A stretch of DNA of 46,861 bases from Ruminococcus sp. (GTDB lineage: Bacteria; Bacillota; Clostridia; Oscillospirales; Ruminococcaceae), in contig JAGBJO010000007.1 of NCBI GenBank assembly GCA_017934425.1, forward strand, positions 1-46,861, read 5' to 3'. Position numbers and translations under genes: made by a program. This document shows, in pieces, positions 12,883 through 20,094 of the stretch (position 1 is the stretch's first letter; each line of letters starts with the position of its first letter). The notes beneath the pieces are model-generated. The model worked only from the letters and a program-made list of their open reading frames with translations. It was not told the origin of the DNA and searched no databases.

Positions 12883-12940
12883 ACTCCTGAGGTGGATCGT
12901 GGAAAAGGGCTATCCCCAATTCCTAAAACTTCTAAATAAA

Positions 12941-12994
12941 AAAATTCCCCCTGATATGGCGGACGAAAGGCTACACCATATCAGGGGGAATTTT
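12941..12994. terminator. Terminator at the 3' end of the phage module
   Basis: A 19-bp perfect stem (12941-12959 with 12976-12994; core TTCCCCCTGATATGG) with a 16-base loop is flanked by an A run and a T run, so it can stop transcription both ways. It lies 45 bases past the stop of the last phage gene. Confidence 0.88.
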
Positions 12995-13038
12995 TATGCT
13001 AAAAGTCTTTGGAAAGGGTGCCGGAAGCAAGCCCCAAC

Positions 13039-13959
13039 TCAGGAGTGAAAGTAATCGTGGTAGATGCTGAGGGAGGTAGTAATGCCGGATCTTGAGCCGG
13101 TCACAACGATACGGCATATTCTGCCGGTGATACTGCCGAATGAGGCGATGTCATAGAGATCCTCGCCTGAGTAGCCCACATAGGTACAGAAGTCGCATTT
13201 CATACCTCTGCCTGCGTAGGCAGCACGGAAGTCAAGAGCGCTGGCAGGAGAATAGAGGTACTGGCGGTCAAGTTCAAAGTATCTGTGCCGGACAATTCCA
13301 CGACTGTCGGCAGCGGCTACATGGAGATCGAAAGTACCATAGGCATCGTCCACATCAGCCATATGCCAATCACTGACGATACGCTTATCTATTGATCTGT
13401 GTCCGGATTCAAGCTGATGCGAGTTGTCGATAGTCACCTGCACCGGCTCAGTCTTGGGCGTGAACATAACGCAGTTTGTACCGCCGATATACGGGTAAGT
13501 AAGCTGCTGTTTATAGCAGAGGTTTACGATACCGTCCCACTGATCGCTGCCGTATTTTACATAGATATATCCGCTTTCGTCGGGGCTGTCCTCGTGGGTA
13601 ACATTAGGAATCGTTACGAAGCCATCCATAAGCCGGTTAAGGGAGATATGGGTATACATTCCCGGCTCAAGCTGGTTCTGCAAGAGCATTGAGGTAAAGC
13701 TGCGTGAGGTAAGTTTTCCGTGGAAGCAATCACCTTTCCGCTTTGTTTCAAAGGTATCAGACGTACCGTGGTGGACGAGCCTGCTGTCAATATACAGTTT
13801 TACTCCGGTAACCTCCCCTTCCACAACCTGTGTTGTAAGAAACGATGCACTTAGCGTGGTGTAGGGCAGGTATGCTTCCTTTTCAAAGCGGAAAGTAAGC
13901 ACCTGCTCCGAAGTTATCTCTGAGTTGTCTGATAGCACCAGAACTATCCGCACGCTCAT
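13039..13959 (-). CDS. Baseplate hub / tail protein-like protein
   Basis: The product has 306 residues. The first 120 (SEQVLTFRFEKEAYLPYTTL, then VKLYIDSRLVHHG and HGKLTSRSFTSMLLQNQ) resemble the first domains of phage hub proteins of the gpD/XkdQ kind, which sit at the tail tip. The rest is beta-rich and ends in GRICRIVVTGSRSGITTSLSIY. It overlaps the preceding gene by four bases (ATGA) and is the last gene of the module. The usual tube, sheath and tape-measure genes that normally accompany a hub are missing. The assignment is from sequence pattern only; a general tail or adaptor role is safer than a specific one. Confidence 0.6.
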   Translation of the reverse strand: MSVRIVLVLSDNSEITSEQVLTFRFEKEAYLPYTTLSASFLTTQVVEGEVTGVKLYIDSRLVHHGTSDTFETKRKGDCFHGKLTSRSFTSMLLQNQLEPGMYTHISLNRLMDGFVTIPNVTHEDSPDESGYIYVKYGSDQWDGIVNLCYKQQLTYPYIGGTNCVMFTPKTEPVQVTIDNSHQLESGHRSIDKRIVSDWHMADVDDAYGTFDLHVAAADSRGIVRHRYFELDRQYLYSPASALDFRAAYAGRGMKCDFCTYVGYSGEDLYDIASFGSITGRICRIVVTGSRSGITTSLSIYHDYFHS

Positions 13960-14342
13960 GTCTGAACCTCCTCGGTTATCGTATCAGAGGTAATGAAAGT
14001 AAGCTCTGCTGTCAGCCAGCCTTCCTCCTTTTCCTCGGCGGTGAAGTTCTGTATTGTACAGCCTGTAAACCTGTAGCCCTGGTATGAGAAGCTGAACTGC
14101 GATCTTGTACCCAGCATATCATGGAATACTGCAAGCGGCTTGATCGAGCGTTCCTCAGAATAGTAACGCAGACAAAGGGTTATCCTTGACGCACGCCTAC
14201 AGTAGTTTGTTACCGCTGTACTTCCTGAAACCGTTGGCTGCTCAGTAACGTTCATAACGCCGGAAGCCTTTATTCTGTCGCAATAAAAGGCATTTCCGCC
14301 TATGACGATGATCTCTGGTTCTCTTTCTTTAATGCCTGTCAT
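13956..14342 (-). CDS. Phage structural or tail-assembly protein, specific role unknown
   Basis: The product has 128 residues. I use the ATG at 14342, seven bases after AAAAGGAGG and overlapping the previous stop (TAATG); the longer frame to 14393 lacks such a site. It is beta-rich, with the segments VTEQPTVSGS, RASRITLCLRYYS, FSYQGYRFTGC and WLTAELTFITSD, which look like a small tail-tube or baseplate-type barrel. I cannot place it in a named family. Its position between a tail-terminator-like gene and a hub-like gene supports a virion role. Confidence 0.65.
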   Translation of the reverse strand: MTGIKEREPEIIVIGGNAFYCDRIKASGVMNVTEQPTVSGSTAVTNYCRRASRITLCLRYYSEERSIKPLAVFHDMLGTRSQFSFSYQGYRFTGCTIQNFTAEEKEEGWLTAELTFITSDTITEEVQT

Positions 14343-14749
14343 TAGTCCTCCTTTTCCGCCTTGTACATACCCTTTACAGTAAGTTCTGCACAAATGGCGA
14401 TACGGCTTATGCTGCTAACGGGCTTGACTGTGATGCTGGTGAGGAAGTGGTCAAGATCGGTAAGCGATGAAAGCCTTGTCATGATCTGCTCCTCAAAGTA
14501 GCTGTAAAGCTGGCTAAGCGGGCAGTTTTCCGGGGCTGTAACAGTCAGCTCCAGTCTCATAGTGTAAGGGATATATGCAGCGAACTGCGAGTATACCGGT
14601 CTTCCGGAAGTAAAGCCGCTGAGTCCTACTATTGTATAGTAGCTGCCGCCCTTATCGCTTACGGAAAGTGCATCAAAGGCACTGTAGATATTTCGCACGC
14701 CTGCATCGCTAAGGCGCTTTATCACGCCGCTTATTACATCTCTGAACAT
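14342..14749 (-). CDS. Tail-terminator/head-tail joining-like protein
   Basis: The product has 135 residues. It starts with an amphipathic helix (MFRDVISGVIKRLSDAG), then strands YYTIVGLSGF and YIPYTMRLELTVTAPENC, a second helix (SQLYSYFEEQIMTRLSSL) and closing strands. This alternation, and the position four genes after the portal, fit the small tail-terminator family that caps tails or closes the connector. It is linked to its neighbours by a 1-base overlap downstream and a 4-base gap upstream. The call is by pattern and position. Confidence 0.6.
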   Translation of the reverse strand: MFRDVISGVIKRLSDAGVRNIYSAFDALSVSDKGGSYYTIVGLSGFTSGRPVYSQFAAYIPYTMRLELTVTAPENCPLSQLYSYFEEQIMTRLSSLTDLDHFLTSITVKPVSSISRIAICAELTVKGMYKAEKED

Positions 14750-14753
14750 GATC

Positions 14754-15104
14754 TCACTCCTTTACTGTACTGAAATAGAAACTGCCGCCGATAAGTTCAC
14801 GGCAGAGTTCGTAGTATTCCGCAAGCAGCTTGGCGGAATAGGCTATAGCGGTATTTTTACCCATATCAGGCAGTTTTCCGGCAAAGGTATACTCCGGTTT
14901 TCCGGCGGAAGCCTTGATAAGCTGGTATCTGTGATTTGCAAGGGCGGCGCAGAGATAATCAAGCCTTACATCAGTTTTATCAGCCTCCGGAAGAAGCATA
15001 CTCTCCACCTCGCTGACTGCTGAGAGAATAAGCGGCAGAAACTTCTCCTCGGTATCCTCGCCTGAGAAAAGCCGGAAAAGTGATCTTACGCTGTCGATGT
15101 TCAT
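14754..15104 (-). CDS. Head-tail connector (gp6/gp15-like) protein
   Basis: This 116-residue, mostly helical protein carries EKFLPLILSAVSEVESMLLP early and LDYLCAALANHRYQLIKAS in the middle. These match the layout of small connector proteins that bind under the portal ring, which are helical bundles of about 100 residues encoded soon after the capsid gene. It lies 11 bases after the protease gene. Family membership is inferred from size, helical pattern and place. Confidence 0.6.
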   Translation of the reverse strand: MNIDSVRSLFRLFSGEDTEEKFLPLILSAVSEVESMLLPEADKTDVRLDYLCAALANHRYQLIKASAGKPEYTFAGKLPDMGKNTAIAYSAKLLAEYYELCRELIGGSFYFSTVKE

Positions 15105-15115
15105 ACTATCCCTCC

Positions 15116-15934
15116 TCAGACCTTGTAGCTGCCGTTTCCGGGAGTGGAGTCGCCCTCGTCAGTAAGCTGAGGGGCGGCACTTTCCGCAGCAAGGCGCTGG
15201 CAGGATTTACGGAGTTCTTCAAGTTCACCGGCAGTCTTACCCTTGCAGGCGATACTCATTGCCTGTACTGCGCTTTTTCCGCCGGCAAACCAGGCAAGGC
15301 GGCGAAGTTCACGGATAAGCTTGTGGTTATCGTCGGGAGCGAAGTTTCCGGAATGAGTGTGGGCGCAGTCAGTGAAATGCTTGGTAACTCCTGCACTTCT
15401 CTGCGCCGGGACTGCCACAAAACTCCATTCATAAGCGTCAGTTATACCGTCAAGTATAATATGGCAGACTTTACCGCCGTAGGTCTTGCCGTTTATATGT
15501 GAACACGGTGACTTTGTACGGTCAGTTCCGCATATTGAGCATACCCTCCTGGAGGCGGTGCAGGAGATACTCACCTCTTTCTTGATGCCGCCCTCTATCT
15601 CAGCGATGAGACTGCGTTTTTCGTCGGTACGTACCATATACGCACTTGCTTTCAGGTACTTGTAGGGTCTGCCGTCAGAAGTAAGGCGTGTATCGTCGGT
15701 GAGTACCTGGCAATCGTAGATACGGGAATTCTGATTGGCGGCAGCAGCGTTATGGTCGGTGATACCGGTCTTACCCAGGAAAAGTGTACTGAGAGTTTCC
15801 AGTGCCTCATCAGTAAAGCGCTCGCCGTCACGGTCGATGTCGTTATCACAAAGCACTACCGAGAAAGTGTACACCTCGTCCTCGGTAAGTTCTCTGCGGG
15901 TATAGCGGTTTATTTTATCAAGTTCAGTTTTCAT
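15116..15934 (-). CDS. Phage prohead protease-like protein with a zinc-knuckle insert
   Basis: The 272-residue product has the main landmarks of capsid maturation proteases: GKTGITDHNAAAANQNSRIY with the putative catalytic histidine (near residue 60), KEVSISC with the putative serine (near 135) and YEWSFVAVPAQ near 190. Between the last two sits a Cys/His cluster (CSICGTDRTKSPCSHINGK), known from XkdF-like proteins of PBSX-type phages. The C-terminal third is a helical tail that could act as a scaffold. Unusually, it is encoded after the major capsid gene rather than before it. A protease that has lost activity cannot be excluded. Confidence 0.75.
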   Translation of the reverse strand: MKTELDKINRYTRRELTEDEVYTFSVVLCDNDIDRDGERFTDEALETLSTLFLGKTGITDHNAAAANQNSRIYDCQVLTDDTRLTSDGRPYKYLKASAYMVRTDEKRSLIAEIEGGIKKEVSISCTASRRVCSICGTDRTKSPCSHINGKTYGGKVCHIILDGITDAYEWSFVAVPAQRSAGVTKHFTDCAHTHSGNFAPDDNHKLIRELRRLAWFAGGKSAVQAMSIACKGKTAGELEELRKSCQRLAAESAAPQLTDEGDSTPGNGSYKV

Positions 15935-15993
15935 AATATACAGGGGCAGCCCTTTCGAGCCGCCCCTCCTCCTTTCCGTGTAGTTTATCAGCT

Positions 15994-16956
15994 TCAGGAA
16001 GCGGTAATGGAAAGCGCCTTTACTGCGTCAGGAGTAAGCTTACGGAAACCGCAGGTAACGGATACAGTGATCTGGTCAAGCTGGCGCTCGATAAGCTTGT
16101 CAGTCTCCAGAACCAGGTCTGTGCTTGTGATGAACTCCAGAGCGAAGTCCTTGTCGATGCCGATGATAGTGTTATCGTCAGCGGCAGAAGTCTTTACCAG
16201 TTCTGCGCCGAAAGGAAGGATAAGTCTGCCGTCAGCGGTGGAGTTAGCTTCCTTCATCTCCTCCATTGCAGCAATAGCTGCGGCTACAGAGGGAGAAGCG
16301 ATAACGGTGGTCATACCGAAGCAGTCGAAGCTGCCGTAAAGTCTTGCCAGGTCGGCGTAGGTGAGGGAAGTGGTTGTAATGGGAGTAGTACCTGTTTTGA
16401 GGACGGTGAAAGCCTCGCCCATTACTGCTGCAGCCAGCTTCATACCGATGCTTCTGAGCATGATGCCGAAGGAGTCAAGGCGCTGTCTGCGTACTGCCTC
16501 ATAGGAAGCATTGATAAGTCTGCCGAACTTCTCCAGAGTGATAGCGTCCGTACCCTCGGTGATAGTTGCTGTGGGAAGCTGGACAGTCTGGGCAACAGAT
16601 TCATACTCAGCAGTATCACTCAGCACACAGCCAAGGTACTGACCGCTTTCGCTGATAGTCTTGACGGCGGTAACTGCGCCCAGGATAGTCTCGTCGAAGC
16701 CCTTTCTGATAGAGCGCACTACGAACTCAGGGAAAAGCACAGCAGTCTCAGTAGAACTGAAGAACTTCTCCACTCTGTCGCAGCCTGCGCCGCCTACCTT
16801 GATGTCGAATCTTTTAAGCTGTCTCTCGTAAGCGTCCAGACCCTCCAGTTCAGTGCCGATGTAGGCGGAAGTGGGGTCGAGAGATTCAAGTGCGGCGGTA
16901 AAGCTTTTGCCGCTGAGGTTGTAAAGTCCCTTTTCAAGTCTGATATCGTTATACAT
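15994..16956 (-). CDS. Phage major capsid protein
   Basis: The 320-residue product has size and composition that fit an HK97-fold coat protein. An N-terminal helical arm precedes a long alternating domain with AVLFPEFVVRSIRKGF near residue 73, VQLPTATITEG near 124, and a C-terminal FALEFITSTDLVLETDKLIE typical of the P-domain end. It lies right after the portal gene. It has a good spread of host-like codons and no frame break. I also considered an encapsulin, but linkage to terminase and portal argues for a DNA-packaging capsid. Confidence 0.8.
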   Translation of the reverse strand: MYNDIRLEKGLYNLSGKSFTAALESLDPTSAYIGTELEGLDAYERQLKRFDIKVGGAGCDRVEKFFSSTETAVLFPEFVVRSIRKGFDETILGAVTAVKTISESGQYLGCVLSDTAEYESVAQTVQLPTATITEGTDAITLEKFGRLINASYEAVRRQRLDSFGIMLRSIGMKLAAAVMGEAFTVLKTGTTPITTTSLTYADLARLYGSFDCFGMTTVIASPSVAAAIAAMEEMKEANSTADGRLILPFGAELVKTSAADDNTIIGIDKDFALEFITSTDLVLETDKLIERQLDQITVSVTCGFRKLTPDAVKALSITAS

Positions 16957-16974
16957 AATTCCTCCGTTCTGCGG

Positions 16975-18102
16975 TCAGTTGTCCGCAAGTGTCTTTTCGA
17001 TCTGAGCTGCCTGAGCATTTTTAAGCCTTGCCTCAGCCAGTGAGATCTCGTCCTGTAGGTTAATGTTCACCCATTCCACTGTGCAGTCTGCATCAATACC
17101 CTGAGAAGCCAGGAAAGCGCTTCCGATACTGCGGATAACGGGTGTGAGAAGCCGGCGGTAGTACTCCAGTTCCGAGGTGAGGATATCCGCCTGCTGGGAC
17201 GACATACGTTCCGTAGAACTCCAGTTCAGTCCCAGGAGAAAAGGCGGTATTGAAAGCTTAGCCACCAGCTGTTCGAGAATTTGTCTTACGGGAACGTTAG
17301 TATCAAAAAGCTGATTCTCCGAACCGATCACCCGGATATCCACGTCCCCTACTGTGATGAAGTCCTTGACCTGTCCCCACTTTGCGGCATTCATACCGTC
17401 CGACCATTCACGAGCGATAAGCATAGCCCTTTCACGGGACTGCGCCGGCGAAAGAGTTTCGCCCTCCGGCTTATAGGTGACGGCATAGCGGATATTTCCG
17501 GCACGGTCGTAGTTCTGACCGATACAGCGGTATATCCTGAGGAGTATACTGCTCAGGGCAGGAAGTCCACGGAGTATACTGTGACCGCCGATAAGCGAAG
17601 CGTAAACGATACGCTCCGGGTGGGGAAGTTTCTTGTCAGTGCCATCTGGCTGTTTAATGGAATACTGCCTGTCGAAAGGCTGACTTCCGGCTATGGGTAC
17701 TACTTTTGCAGGGTCGCCGTTTATAAGTCCGGCGATTCCGGAAGCGTCCGCTGCCGGGACTATCTCCCCTACTGCGCTGCCATAGGTAAGCAGGCTGTCA
17801 AGGAATATATCCGTGAACGTTCCCAGTGAACAGCCGGTAATTCCCACCGGTACTTCACTTGAAAACCTGTCCAGCAACTCCTGATACCTCTCGTCCGAGG
17901 AAATAAGCCTGTAGCCGCCGGTAAGACGTATGACTTTCATTATCGCCGCATCAATTACCGGAACGGCATACCTCAGCCTGTCGTAAAGTTCCCGTTCAAA
18001 GGGTTCAGCAGCCGCCGGAAGAATGTCGCCGTATGGCTCGCATCTGTCGGTGCTGATTATCTGGGGCTGAGTCTTTTCCCTGCTTTTTCTGAAAATGCTT
18101 AT
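16975..18102 (-). CDS. Phage portal protein, apparently starting at an ATA codon
   Basis: The 375-residue product is probably the dodecameric ring that threads DNA into the capsid. Clear portal features include IDAAIMKVIRLTGGY, LLTYGSAVGEIVP, the clip-region segment LSIPPFLLGLNWSSTERMS and the helical LTSELEYYRRLLTPVIRS. The first ATG (17940) is too far in: 54 in-frame codons upstream of it read like a portal N-terminus (SIFRKSREKTQPQIISTDR onward). Before them lies AAAGGAGG, nine bases from ATA (18102-18100). No ATG, GTG or TTG occurs in frame between the preceding stop and 17940. So the start is ATA, or a former ATG has been lost. Confidence 0.82.
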   Translation of the reverse strand: MSIFRKSREKTQPQIISTDRCEPYGDILPAAAEPFERELYDRLRYAVPVIDAAIMKVIRLTGGYRLISSDERYQELLDRFSSEVPVGITGCSLGTFTDIFLDSLLTYGSAVGEIVPAADASGIAGLINGDPAKVVPIAGSQPFDRQYSIKQPDGTDKKLPHPERIVYASLIGGHSILRGLPALSSILLRIYRCIGQNYDRAGNIRYAVTYKPEGETLSPAQSRERAMLIAREWSDGMNAAKWGQVKDFITVGDVDIRVIGSENQLFDTNVPVRQILEQLVAKLSIPPFLLGLNWSSTERMSSQQADILTSELEYYRRLLTPVIRSIGSAFLASQGIDADCTVEWVNINLQDEISLAEARLKNAQAAQIEKTLADN

Positions 18103-18118
18103 TGTGATCGACCTCCTT

Positions 18119-19363
18119 TCATCGAGATGCTGAGATAACGAAGAAGCCCTCGTCTGTGTCTGACCGCATCATATCCGCCACAAAGTAGCGCATATCGTCC
18201 ATTGCGTGGTCATTCTCCTTTACAGGTGCATCAGTGCCGGACTTCTCGCTCCAGCGGTAGAGAGTGAACTCCCTTATAATGTCCTTGCAGTCCTCATGGA
18301 AGCGGAGTTTACCTGCTTTAAGCGCAGCGCTTACGTTCCGTATCCCTGTGATGACATCGTTCTCAGCCTTTACCACTCTGAACTCGCCGTGTCTGCGGAT
18401 ACACTCGATAAAGCTGGCAGCCGAGGGGTCAACTATAACTTTGTCCACCTCAATGCCCTCTGCCAGTTCTTTCAGAGCAAGGTAATGTTCCTCGTCAGTC
18501 CGTGAGATGCCTTCCCTTTTGGAGGAATAGTAGTACTCCTTAGTCCTGTACCATATTCCTCCGGAAAGTCCCCAAAGACCGAATGAGGAGGGGTTGACTG
18601 TGCCGTAGTCGCAGGAGATAACGTATCTTTCGCACATTATTTCTCCGCTGTAGATATGCTGTTTCGGGTCAAACATGGGGTAGACCACTCCCTCAGAGGC
18701 GCACCATCTGCCGAGTATGAACCTGTCGTAGAATGAGCCGGAGTAAAGCCGCCTGTAGCGTTCCCTGACCCTTTCGGAAAGGGAGGGATTGTCCTCCATA
18801 GTGAAGTGGAGGTACAGTGCTTTTTTCTCCTGAGCCTTCTTTATCCAGGTGGTATAGAACCAGTGTGAGGGATTATCCGGGTTGCAGTTGAACCACAGTT
18901 TCGAGCCGGTCACTGAGCATCTGGCAAGCGCCTGCTCCACGAAAGAGCGTGGCATAAGGGCAACCTCGTCCAGCATAACACCAGCAAGGGTGATACCCTG
19001 GATAAGTGCCGCTGAACCCTCATCTTTGCCGCCGAAAAGGTAGTAGCGGTTAGTTCTGCCGCAAAGACTGATATCAACATAGCTTGCAGATACTCTCTCG
19101 GTGCAGGTAAAACCTATCTCCCGGAGCAGGGGCAGAAGCGGCGTTACTACATTTCTCCGGAGGGAGGTTACTGTCTTGCCGCAAAGTGCGAAACTCTGCC
19201 CGGAAAAGCTTACGCTGCCCCAGAGAATGAATCCCAGCGACATTGCAAGAGTCTTGCCGCTTCGTACAGCGCCGTCGCAAATAACAGCGTCGCAGTCACG
19301 GTAAGCCGGGTCACGCCACCAGTTCATGGCGGTGAGCTGCTTTGGGGAGAAACTGCGTATCAT
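18119..19363 (-). CDS. terL: Terminase large subunit (PBSX-type)
   Basis: This 414-residue DNA-packaging motor has an N-terminal ATPase with Walker A CDGAVRSGKTLAMS (about residues 28-41) and Walker B GVMLDEVAL (near 129). The C-terminal RNase H-like nuclease has acidic motifs in ISCDYGTVNPSSF (near 247), KVIVDPSAASF and AMDDMRYFVADMM. The length matches PBSX XtmB relatives. It starts at an ATG overlapping the terS stop by one base (TGATG). All motor and nuclease acids look present, so it could be functional. Confidence 0.93.
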   Translation of the reverse strand: MIRSFSPKQLTAMNWWRDPAYRDCDAVICDGAVRSGKTLAMSLGFILWGSVSFSGQSFALCGKTVTSLRRNVVTPLLPLLREIGFTCTERVSASYVDISLCGRTNRYYLFGGKDEGSAALIQGITLAGVMLDEVALMPRSFVEQALARCSVTGSKLWFNCNPDNPSHWFYTTWIKKAQEKKALYLHFTMEDNPSLSERVRERYRRLYSGSFYDRFILGRWCASEGVVYPMFDPKQHIYSGEIMCERYVISCDYGTVNPSSFGLWGLSGGIWYRTKEYYYSSKREGISRTDEEHYLALKELAEGIEVDKVIVDPSAASFIECIRRHGEFRVVKAENDVITGIRNVSAALKAGKLRFHEDCKDIIREFTLYRWSEKSGTDAPVKENDHAMDDMRYFVADMMRSDTDEGFFVISASR

Positions 19364-19836
19364 CAGGTTTCAGCCTCCTCCCCTGCCAGCGCCCGGATAA
19401 GGCTTTCGGCGGTGTCCTTTTCATTGATGGTACTTTGCAGTTCATGGAGTTTTTCCATAGCTTTGAGCCTGTCAGCCAGCTTTACTTCAACGCCTCCGCC
19501 CTTTACACGCTTTATCTCCGACACGCCGAACAAGTCAAGGCGGCGGATAACGTCAGGGGGAGGAAGTTCCTCGGCAAAGGCAAGGTAGACCGCATCATTG
19601 CAGTTACCAAAAGCCAGCCGCTTCAGCCCGGAAATGACGGACTGAGTATCGCTGAGGGCGGAGCGTATCTGGGATATCCTCCTTTTGTTCTGCTCCCGGC
19701 TGAGAATGGCGACTGCCTGAGCCATAGCGTCCTCTGGTGGGAATCCGGCTTTAACAGCGGCTTCCCCTGCATCGCCCAGGACTGCGTACCACAGACAAAA
19801 GCTGCGGCACATCTGGTTTTTCTGGTTCTCCGGCAT
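19363..19836 (-). CDS. terS: Terminase small subunit
   Basis: The 157-residue product has an N-terminal helix-turn-helix-like part (CRSFCLWYAVLGDAGEAAVK, AGFPPEDAMAQAVAILS), a middle RRISQIRSALSD, and a C-terminal coiled segment before EAET. This fits the small subunit that recognises the packaging site. I start at the ATG at 19836, seven bases after AAAGGAGGT; a longer frame to 19899 has no ribosome site. It is the first gene of the module. The 170 bases upstream, before the terminator, contain no promoter I trust. Confidence 0.85.
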   Translation of the reverse strand: MPENQKNQMCRSFCLWYAVLGDAGEAAVKAGFPPEDAMAQAVAILSREQNKRRISQIRSALSDTQSVISGLKRLAFGNCNDAVYLAFAEELPPPDVIRRLDLFGVSEIKRVKGGGVEVKLADRLKAMEKLHELQSTINEKDTAESLIRALAGEEAET

Positions 19837-20007
19837 AATAATGACCTCCTTTCTGAACGGTTTGGACGTGCCGTTCATAAGGGGGCAAAAATGGGGCATT
19901 TTTCAACCGAAAACAGTTGATTATTGAAAAACTTTTCCAGCACTTTGTATACCTGCACAAATGTGAACACTGTTTTTAAAGCACATCTTACAAATAAGTG
20001 CAAAAAA

Positions 20008-20043
20008 ATTCCCCCTACAGTCAAAACCAACTGTAGGGGGAAT
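20008..20043 (-). terminator. Terminator before the phage module
   Basis: A 14-bp perfect stem (ATTCCCCCTACAGT and complement) with an 8-base loop is followed by seven Ts on the minus strand. It ends the purD-side transcript and so insulates the phage genes. Confidence 0.88.
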
Positions 20044-20094
20044 CTTATTTCCCAAGCTTTTCAAAAAAGCGTGTATTTCAAGTGCCGCTGCCGG

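Follow-up and report, generated by a model that had tools for sequence, protein, structure and literature searches.

A nine-gene, virus-derived capsid module in the Ruminococcus chromosome as a probable gene transfer agent-like device

A contig of 46,861 nucleotides (JAGBJO010000007.1, assembly GCA_017934425.1), which we analyzed at its full length and call the window, comes from a Ruminococcus sp. metagenome-assembled genome of 53.6% completeness; its minus strand carries, at 13039-19836, a 6.8-kb cassette of nine tightly packed, intact genes for DNA packaging and capsid proteins. We consider it probable, at roughly 0.7, that these genes are a domesticated, mostly vertically inherited module of viral origin that makes a particle like that of a gene transfer agent (GTA). 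An earlier interpretation made from the DNA letters (the sequence-only reading) had offered a domesticated gene-transfer-like device as one possibility and had described nine packed capsid and packaging genes, intact in frame and unlike a prophage ruin, with a terminator at each end. Each of these points held up: the nine frames are intact and under purifying selection, both hairpins are there, and the gene-transfer-like device is supported by a single copy throughout the genus, a host-congruent tree, and that same selection. The genes, in order from terS to the hub, and the bounding hairpins are as follows.

20008..20043 (scored as 20000-20050 on the minus strand; folds on both strands): terminator hairpin upstream of terS, -28.6 kcal/mol, z -7.3
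19363..19836, minus strand: terS, small terminase, 157 aa (PF03592, 6e-10; phrog_51, 3e-11)
18119..19363, minus strand: terL, large terminase (PF03237, 2e-14; phrog_2, 4e-45)
16975..18102, minus strand: portal, probable start ATA at 18102 (phrog_30703, 2e-116)
15994..16956, minus strand: major capsid protein, 320 aa (PF25209, 3e-13; phrog_3922, 2e-66)
15116..15934, minus strand: prohead-protease-like protein, 272 aa, with a Cys-rich insert (phrog_16951, 1e-88, function unassigned)
14754..15104, minus strand: putative head-tail connector, 116 aa, role assigned from position
14342..14749, minus strand: putative neck or tail-terminator-like protein, 135 aa, identity assigned from position
13956..14342, minus strand: tube-fold ring protein, 128 aa from the ATG at 14342, predicted tail-tube or tube-initiator fold
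13039..13959, minus strand: baseplate hub, 306 aa, Mu gp44-like fold (profile match in PDB and model)
12930..12995 (scored as 12925-13000), minus strand: terminator hairpin 3' of the hub gene, -35.5 kcal/mol, z -8.6

Both hairpins are far stronger than expected by chance, and the upstream one separates the cassette from the next gene and purD. Each of the first five genes has a phage family match, the fifth matching nothing but a PHROG without an assigned function; we take its product to be the prohead protease from its position and the order of motifs judged by eye, no family match identifying it as such. The connector, neck, tube-fold, and hub proteins matched no Pfam or PHROG family significantly. 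A PDB search with the hub profile gave Mu gp44-type hubs, and a structure model of the hub, a check that the sequence-only reading had suggested, shows the same fold. The terminase, portal, capsid, and hub matches thus mark these as particle proteins derived from caudoviricetes.

Of 125 genomes of the genus, 116 have the capsid gene, in single copy (split into two pieces in four of them); among the 68 good genomes (completeness of 90% or more, contamination of 5% or less) the figure is 65. Three good genomes gave no capsid match: G004, which does hold the cassette, with a run of N interrupting its capsid gene, and G010 and G105, to which we return below. When 30 in-genus loci (the window, 28 loci picked by capsid match, and G004) were surveyed with 20 gene-family profiles, all nine genes were present in every one, and a sheath gene and baseplate gene J in none. 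Loci of public genome records, which overlap our main genome set, gave a similar picture: 63 of 80 have the full set of nine in a constant order, a loose rule places 14 of the remaining 17 close to contig ends, and in the last three only the 135-aa gene went undetected; sheath, J, and gp25 were found in none of the 80.

All nine genes are under purifying selection. Among pairs with dS of 0.02-1.5 drawn from 29 in-genus loci, the median ratio of nonsynonymous to synonymous change (dN/dS) was 0.14 for terS, 0.12 for terL, 0.12 for the portal, 0.14 for the capsid, and 0.19 for the protease-like gene, followed by 0.25 for the connector, 0.29 for the neck, 0.41 for the tube-fold gene, and 0.195 for the hub; dN was below dS in every finite pair of every gene, and many further pairs were saturated. 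The dN/dS comparison that had been recommended from sequence therefore came out as constraint throughout (medians 0.12-0.41), with terminase, portal, and capsid the most constrained (0.12-0.14).

The module is also mostly vertically inherited, its tree being congruent with that of the host. We built a tree from concatenated TerL, portal, capsid, and protease-like proteins of 30 genomes from 18 genera, chosen among capsid-positive ones: 15 of its 27 splits are common to an RpoB tree (300 shuffles gave a mean of 0.25 and a maximum of 4), and head-gene distances correlate with RpoB distances at 0.84 (maximum of 2000 permutations, 0.34).

Given its core chromosomal flanks, the window cassette is endogenized in the host chromosome. 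One flank encodes adenylosuccinate lyase, RimM, TrmD, HPr, a SpoIVB peptidase, and a pyridoxamine-oxidase-like protein, and the other PurD, a PurH-type protein, and IMP cyclohydrolase-like and AIR synthase-like proteins; the products of 20 of the larger flanking open reading frames (ORFs) are purine, translation, sporulation, or other housekeeping proteins, or are unmatched. No integrase or lysis family was seen among these 20 and the ten proteins of the cassette scan (smaller ORFs were not scanned), and the integrase, replication, and lysis genes that a temperate prophage carries in its element were likewise not found among the cassette and these flanking proteins. PADLOC gave no match among 10 proteins. 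The sequence-only reading had seen no lysis, integrase, or tail-tube genes: the first two absences stand for the proteins scanned, and the third needs qualifying, because the product of 13956-14342 is predicted to have a tube fold.

The neighborhood of the cassette varies within the genus. In 9 of 31 in-genus loci the purD gene or its neighbor lies within six genes of it, in either orientation; a small FeoA-like gene (read by eye) directly adjoins the hub side in 10 of 31. The cassette thus occupies a few recurrent chromosomal sites rather than one, so that a search of related Ruminococcus for the same nine genes at the same locus, as had been proposed, recovers the genes but not a single locus. 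The last 116 bases of the contig (46746-46861) match at 94% the start of an IMG/VR contig (L118:1-117) that carries a 91% identical cassette and purD; this end-of-contig match suggests a rearrangement or repeat near purD.

Relatives show graded tail loss, from a contractile tail through a baseplate without sheath to a hub only (Ruminococcus) and a head only. We applied 20 gene-family profiles to 89 loci of 11-20 kb, nearly all chosen by capsid match. Eighteen have a sheath gene, most of them also tube, J, gp25-like, and gpI-like genes, that is, a short contractile tail; seven have baseplate genes without a sheath; and 53 have head genes and a hub without sheath or J, 30 of these in-genus and two others outside it (L072 and L107) keeping a tube gene. 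Five loci, from genomes of 0.7-0.9 Mb, have only the protease-like and capsid genes in place. In three the hub was not found, two are cut by contig ends, and one is that of G010. Tail genes have thus been lost relative to contractile relatives, in line with the tailless or short-tailed particle that the sequence-only reading had considered.

Of 14 Ruminococcus genomes searched for the J gene of the contractile relatives, 13 gave nothing and the other one partial match (3e-17); there is thus no sign that the baseplate relocated, sheath and tube not having been sought genome-wide. According to the sequence-only reading, a full tailed prophage at this place in close relatives would reduce the cassette to a decaying prophage. 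None of the 30 in-genus loci shows a sheath or J; other genera do have contractile-tail versions, and in L074, the one contractile relative that we read gene by gene (and the only one examined for integrase and lysis genes), the cluster is flanked by glycolysis-type genes and ribosomal protein genes (by eye), with neither integrase nor lysis genes. Its matches include Baseplate_J (2e-35) and GP46 (6e-4), with only 0.012 for the sheath C-terminal domain and only 0.036 for the hub family GPD. The contractile or partly reduced clusters of L072, L073, and L074, from three genera, are flanked by one common block of genes.

At the reduced end of the series, TerL is encoded elsewhere in all five genomes of 0.7-0.9 Mb, and terS was detected beside it in four. 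The second locus of G191, 126 kb away, contains terS, terL, a connector, a tube-fold-type gene, a hub, and baseplate genes; only terS and terL were recognized at those of G210, G282, and G296. These split operons correspond to L359-L361, L369, L370, and L379-L383, and in two of the five genomes a small decoration-like gene (by eye) precedes the protease-like gene. Separately, two head-only clusters (L308 and L309, terS to neck) of one genus of family f24 lie beside host genes, and J was found elsewhere in none of five genomes of that genus.

The particles of the known agents RcGTA and BhGTA have tails, and PBSX of Bacillus subtilis keeps a contractile tail; unlike PBSX, the Ruminococcus module has no contractile tail, as far as a comparison by description goes. 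In the available part of PMC9662315, GTAs are defined by particle proteins derived from caudoviricetes, encapsidation of mostly random host DNA, delivery of that DNA to other cells, endogenization, often at several loci, a gene set of their own that is not fully packageable, and mostly vertical inheritance with congruent trees. The module fits a GTA-like device in that three of these six features were found here (caudovirus-derived proteins, endogenization, and host-congruent inheritance), the remaining three being experimental. Endogenization is also seen in relatives: L288, described below, sits beside a ribosomal protein operon, and in the five small genomes the genes are split over several loci. 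According to the same part of PMC9662315, the RcGTA family (Rhodogtaviriformidae) and BhGTA (Brachygtaviriformidae) are likewise caudovirus-derived, chromosomal, and co-diversifying with their hosts, with genes sometimes spread over several loci, like those of genera g68 and g87 here; they differ in having other hosts and in that packaging and transfer have been shown, whereas the Ruminococcus module is known from its genes.

Closer to the host at hand, the available portion of PMC12946183 (2026) reports GTA-like packaging in Faecalibacterium, Gemmiger, CAG-115, and R. callidus (4.6-kb fragments), among others, and names genes only for Faecalibacterium, not for R. callidus. Its FpGTA I/II of Faecalibacterium prausnitzii, a host of the family Ruminococcaceae, comprise about ten genes, including terS, terL, portal, head scaffolding, and capsid; replication genes are absent, and the particles have no identifiable tails. 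Likened by description, they agree with the Ruminococcus module in host family, in a small terS/terL/portal/capsid set, and in the lack of replication genes. They differ in a second locus with baseplate, fiber, holin, and endolysin genes (PMC12946183, same portion), whereas in the Ruminococcus module the capsid gene precedes the protease-like gene and J was not found in 13 of 14 genomes. PBSX is, in that text, a phage-like particle fixed in a Gram-positive lineage, which the module would be here too. The cassette measures 6.8 kb versus the 4.6 kb packaged in R. callidus, and the module is a candidate source of that particle. TerL had no match in five genomes of genus g54, guessed to be Faecalibacterium from weak phage-marker matches only. 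In the open-licence literature we found no paper describing the module in Ruminococcus.

We propose that, once the module's own promoter is on, TerS and TerL would thread host DNA via the portal into a small capsid that the protease would mature. The connector and neck proteins would seal the portal, and one tube-fold ring with a trimeric hub would form a stub tail, plugging the capsid and serving release or delivery. Having no integrase, replication, or lysis genes beside it, the module could not spread by itself as a phage. Its ultimate role may be gene transfer, repair by DNA uptake, or killing. To a broader reading we give even odds: an ancient GTA family, patchy through the order, may have been domesticated stepwise, the Ruminococcus form having, to our knowledge, the smallest DNA-delivering or -releasing tail and being the source of the 4.6-kb packaging in R. 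callidus. The stages, on the same even footing, would be a contractile form, a baseplate without sheath, a capsid with one tube-fold ring and a Mu gp44-type hub, a head-only form, and a form dispersed yet kept in genomes of 0.7-0.9 Mb.

Ruminococcus are common fiber degraders of guts and rumens. Should almost all of them make, as inherited equipment, a particle that packs DNA, the gut would have a built-in route of gene exchange, one whose gene set is defined and open to knockout and measurement. The tail-loss series, in which terminase, portal, and capsid are kept, bears on which phage parts hosts need and on whether a near-tailless GTA can work.

Several observations weigh against the GTA-like reading. 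The module is known from genes, from which we infer particles, packaging, and transfer, and it is a candidate for the 4.6-kb particle of R. callidus (PMC12946183, available portion) by relatedness only. Lysis genes do not lie beside the cassette (a genome-wide search was not made), which leaves release unexplained, and for a hub without baseplate, spike, or tape measure the route of DNA delivery is hypothetical. Twelve of the 27 splits of the head-gene tree differ from RpoB, so some transfer or noise is possible. G010 (L367) has lost an internal stretch that begins inside terL and ends inside the tube-fold gene, with the hub intact, a rare decayed copy, and G105, which is 96% complete, has neither capsid nor TerL; this deletion and this absence indicate that the module is dispensable. 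Beyond the genus its distribution is patchy: a capsid match was found in 179 of 396 genomes and 63 of 126 genera of the family (173 genomes and 60 genera without two prophage genomes of genus g3 and four weak matches of g30 and g66) and in 71 of 394 genomes, 42 of 168 genera, and six family codes of the order, this tally including one g3 prophage. Complete genomes in some positive genera (g44 and g112) have no capsid match, and the three matches among 398 genomes of a phylum sample are the window genome, one of its family, and one of its order.

That the module is instead a killing or defense particle like PBSX or a tailocin, packaging DNA incidentally while it kills competitors, is in our view unlikely. 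It draws on the relatives, 18 of 89 loci having a sheath gene and most of these also baseplate genes that could puncture cells, and a PBSX-like role has been raised for FpGTA (PMC12946183, in the portion available). Such particles are recognized by a contractile sheath, a tube stack, and a baseplate, whereas the Ruminococcus cluster has neither sheath nor J in any in-genus locus surveyed nor J in 13 of 14 genomes, and terminase, portal, and capsid are its most constrained genes.

A capsid-forming phage satellite, with small capsids that borrow the tails of a helper phage, is very unlikely. The few tail parts recall satellites that rely on helper tails, and L308, L309, and L288 are head only. 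Satellites of the cf-PICI type are mobile and have an integrase and a replication module beside their capsid genes; neither integrase nor replication genes were among the flanking proteins scanned here, and the module is single copy and co-inherited with its host. The satellite remnant that the sequence-only reading had entertained is therefore not supported, though the module may still use the tails of a helper phage.

No more probable is a storage or protein compartment resembling an encapsulin, with the shell under selection rather than DNA transfer. The five ultra-small genomes, whose capsid and protease-like genes are separate from the rest, had seemed to favor it; a shell-only interpretation of them was dropped with TerL found elsewhere in all five and terS beside it in four (portal genes were not sought there). 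An encapsulin is a shell without terminase and portal, and in Ruminococcus the portal and both terminase subunits are present and constrained.

Genuine prophages with related genes exist. Prophage regions L298 and L299 gave capsid matches of 4e-29 and 3e-28 and protease-like matches of 6e-78 and 4e-80, and L300 has homologous TerS and TerL (TerL, 4e-190); read by eye, all three have further tail genes, and L300 also a lysozyme-like gene. They are possible phage cousins of the module, as judged from sequence, and the phages behind phrog_3922, phrog_30703, and phrog_16951 have homologous capsid, portal, and protease-like genes. A decaying prophage, of which only the late head genes of an integrated phage are left, could explain the missing integrase and lysis genes nearby and has these prophages and the decayed copy in G010 in its favor, but it is extremely improbable because all 30 in-genus loci surveyed have the nine genes, selection is purifying, and the tree is host-congruent.

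Only 5 of 50,697 phage records matched, all uncultivated fecal scaffolds, and in IMG/VR 365 of 387 candidate stretches are relatives, of which the 80 kept sit on contigs of less than 18 kb. The longest phage-record match, MT835508.1 (L288), deposited as 'Bacteriophage sp.', is bacterial chromosome that carries a ribosomal protein operon as well as a head-only cassette. Many similar 'viral' fragments in databases may likewise be bacterial chromosome, as was shown for this one. Two records titled Alistipes (L280 and L284) hold a Ruminococcus-type cassette; the title of L280 is probably wrong.

The leader between terS and the upstream terminator contains a box, an A/T tract, a dyad, and a short motif; the box and the motif are as follows.

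19944..19960, minus strand: operator-like box TTGTGCANNTATACAAA, some 108 bp 5' of the terS start
19871..19881, minus strand: conserved leader motif CTTATGAACGG, which may be a -10 region or the beginning of a 5' hairpin

The box is exact in the window, where it has no other match at three mismatches, and with at most two mismatches it precedes terS in 18 of 29 in-genus loci, compared with 5 matches elsewhere in 1.1 Mb on both strands; having been derived from these same loci, its counts there are biased upwards. With at most three mismatches it was found in 24 of 65 loci of public records, including other genera, and in 2 of 45 loci outside the genus. It accompanies terS even though the flanks differ. 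A few more genes have the box upstream as well, including one for a lipoprotein-like protein in three Ruminococcus loci (L059:15745, L261:17421, and L283:658), which hints at a possible small regulon. The second motif, at no more than one mismatch, is present in 16 of the 29 in-genus loci and has 17 matches elsewhere in 1.1 Mb. A LexA-type box (GAACNNNNGTTC) was rejected: its 16 window matches at up to one mismatch compare with 16.5 expected, and none lies between terS and the upstream terminator. A scan for sigma-70 promoters found 7 against 7.1 expected, so we claim no promoter from it.

As for the individual genes, terS starts at the ATG at 19836, which is preceded by the ribosome-binding site AAAGGAGG, and its frame is open to 19899. 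TerL is 52-72% identical to 28 homologues across the order, and its invariant columns include Walker-like and acidic residues (assigned by eye). The profile of the 128-aa tube-fold protein matched no PDB sequence; the protein is related to the hub-adjacent gene of contractile clusters. The connector family was found in 60 of 61 loci, directly after the capsid or protease-like gene. The neck gene is present in 29 of 29 in-genus loci; the link of its profile to the terminator family of contractile relatives was not significant, and it matches the gene at the same position in L308 (6e-07).

The portal start required closer inspection. From its first ATG, at 17940, the portal would have 321 aa, and the match to phrog_30703 would not begin until profile position 48. 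The 28 other portals read in the genus reach at least 374 aa, and a start at 17940 would lose about 54 residues that they have. An ATA codon (18100-18102) is correctly spaced, with AAAGGAGG nine bases upstream. The length of the other portals and this spacing argue that the ATG at 17940 is not the true start. The ATA is kept in the close relatives L119 and L118 (98.6% and 90.9% DNA identity), and most other species have ATG.

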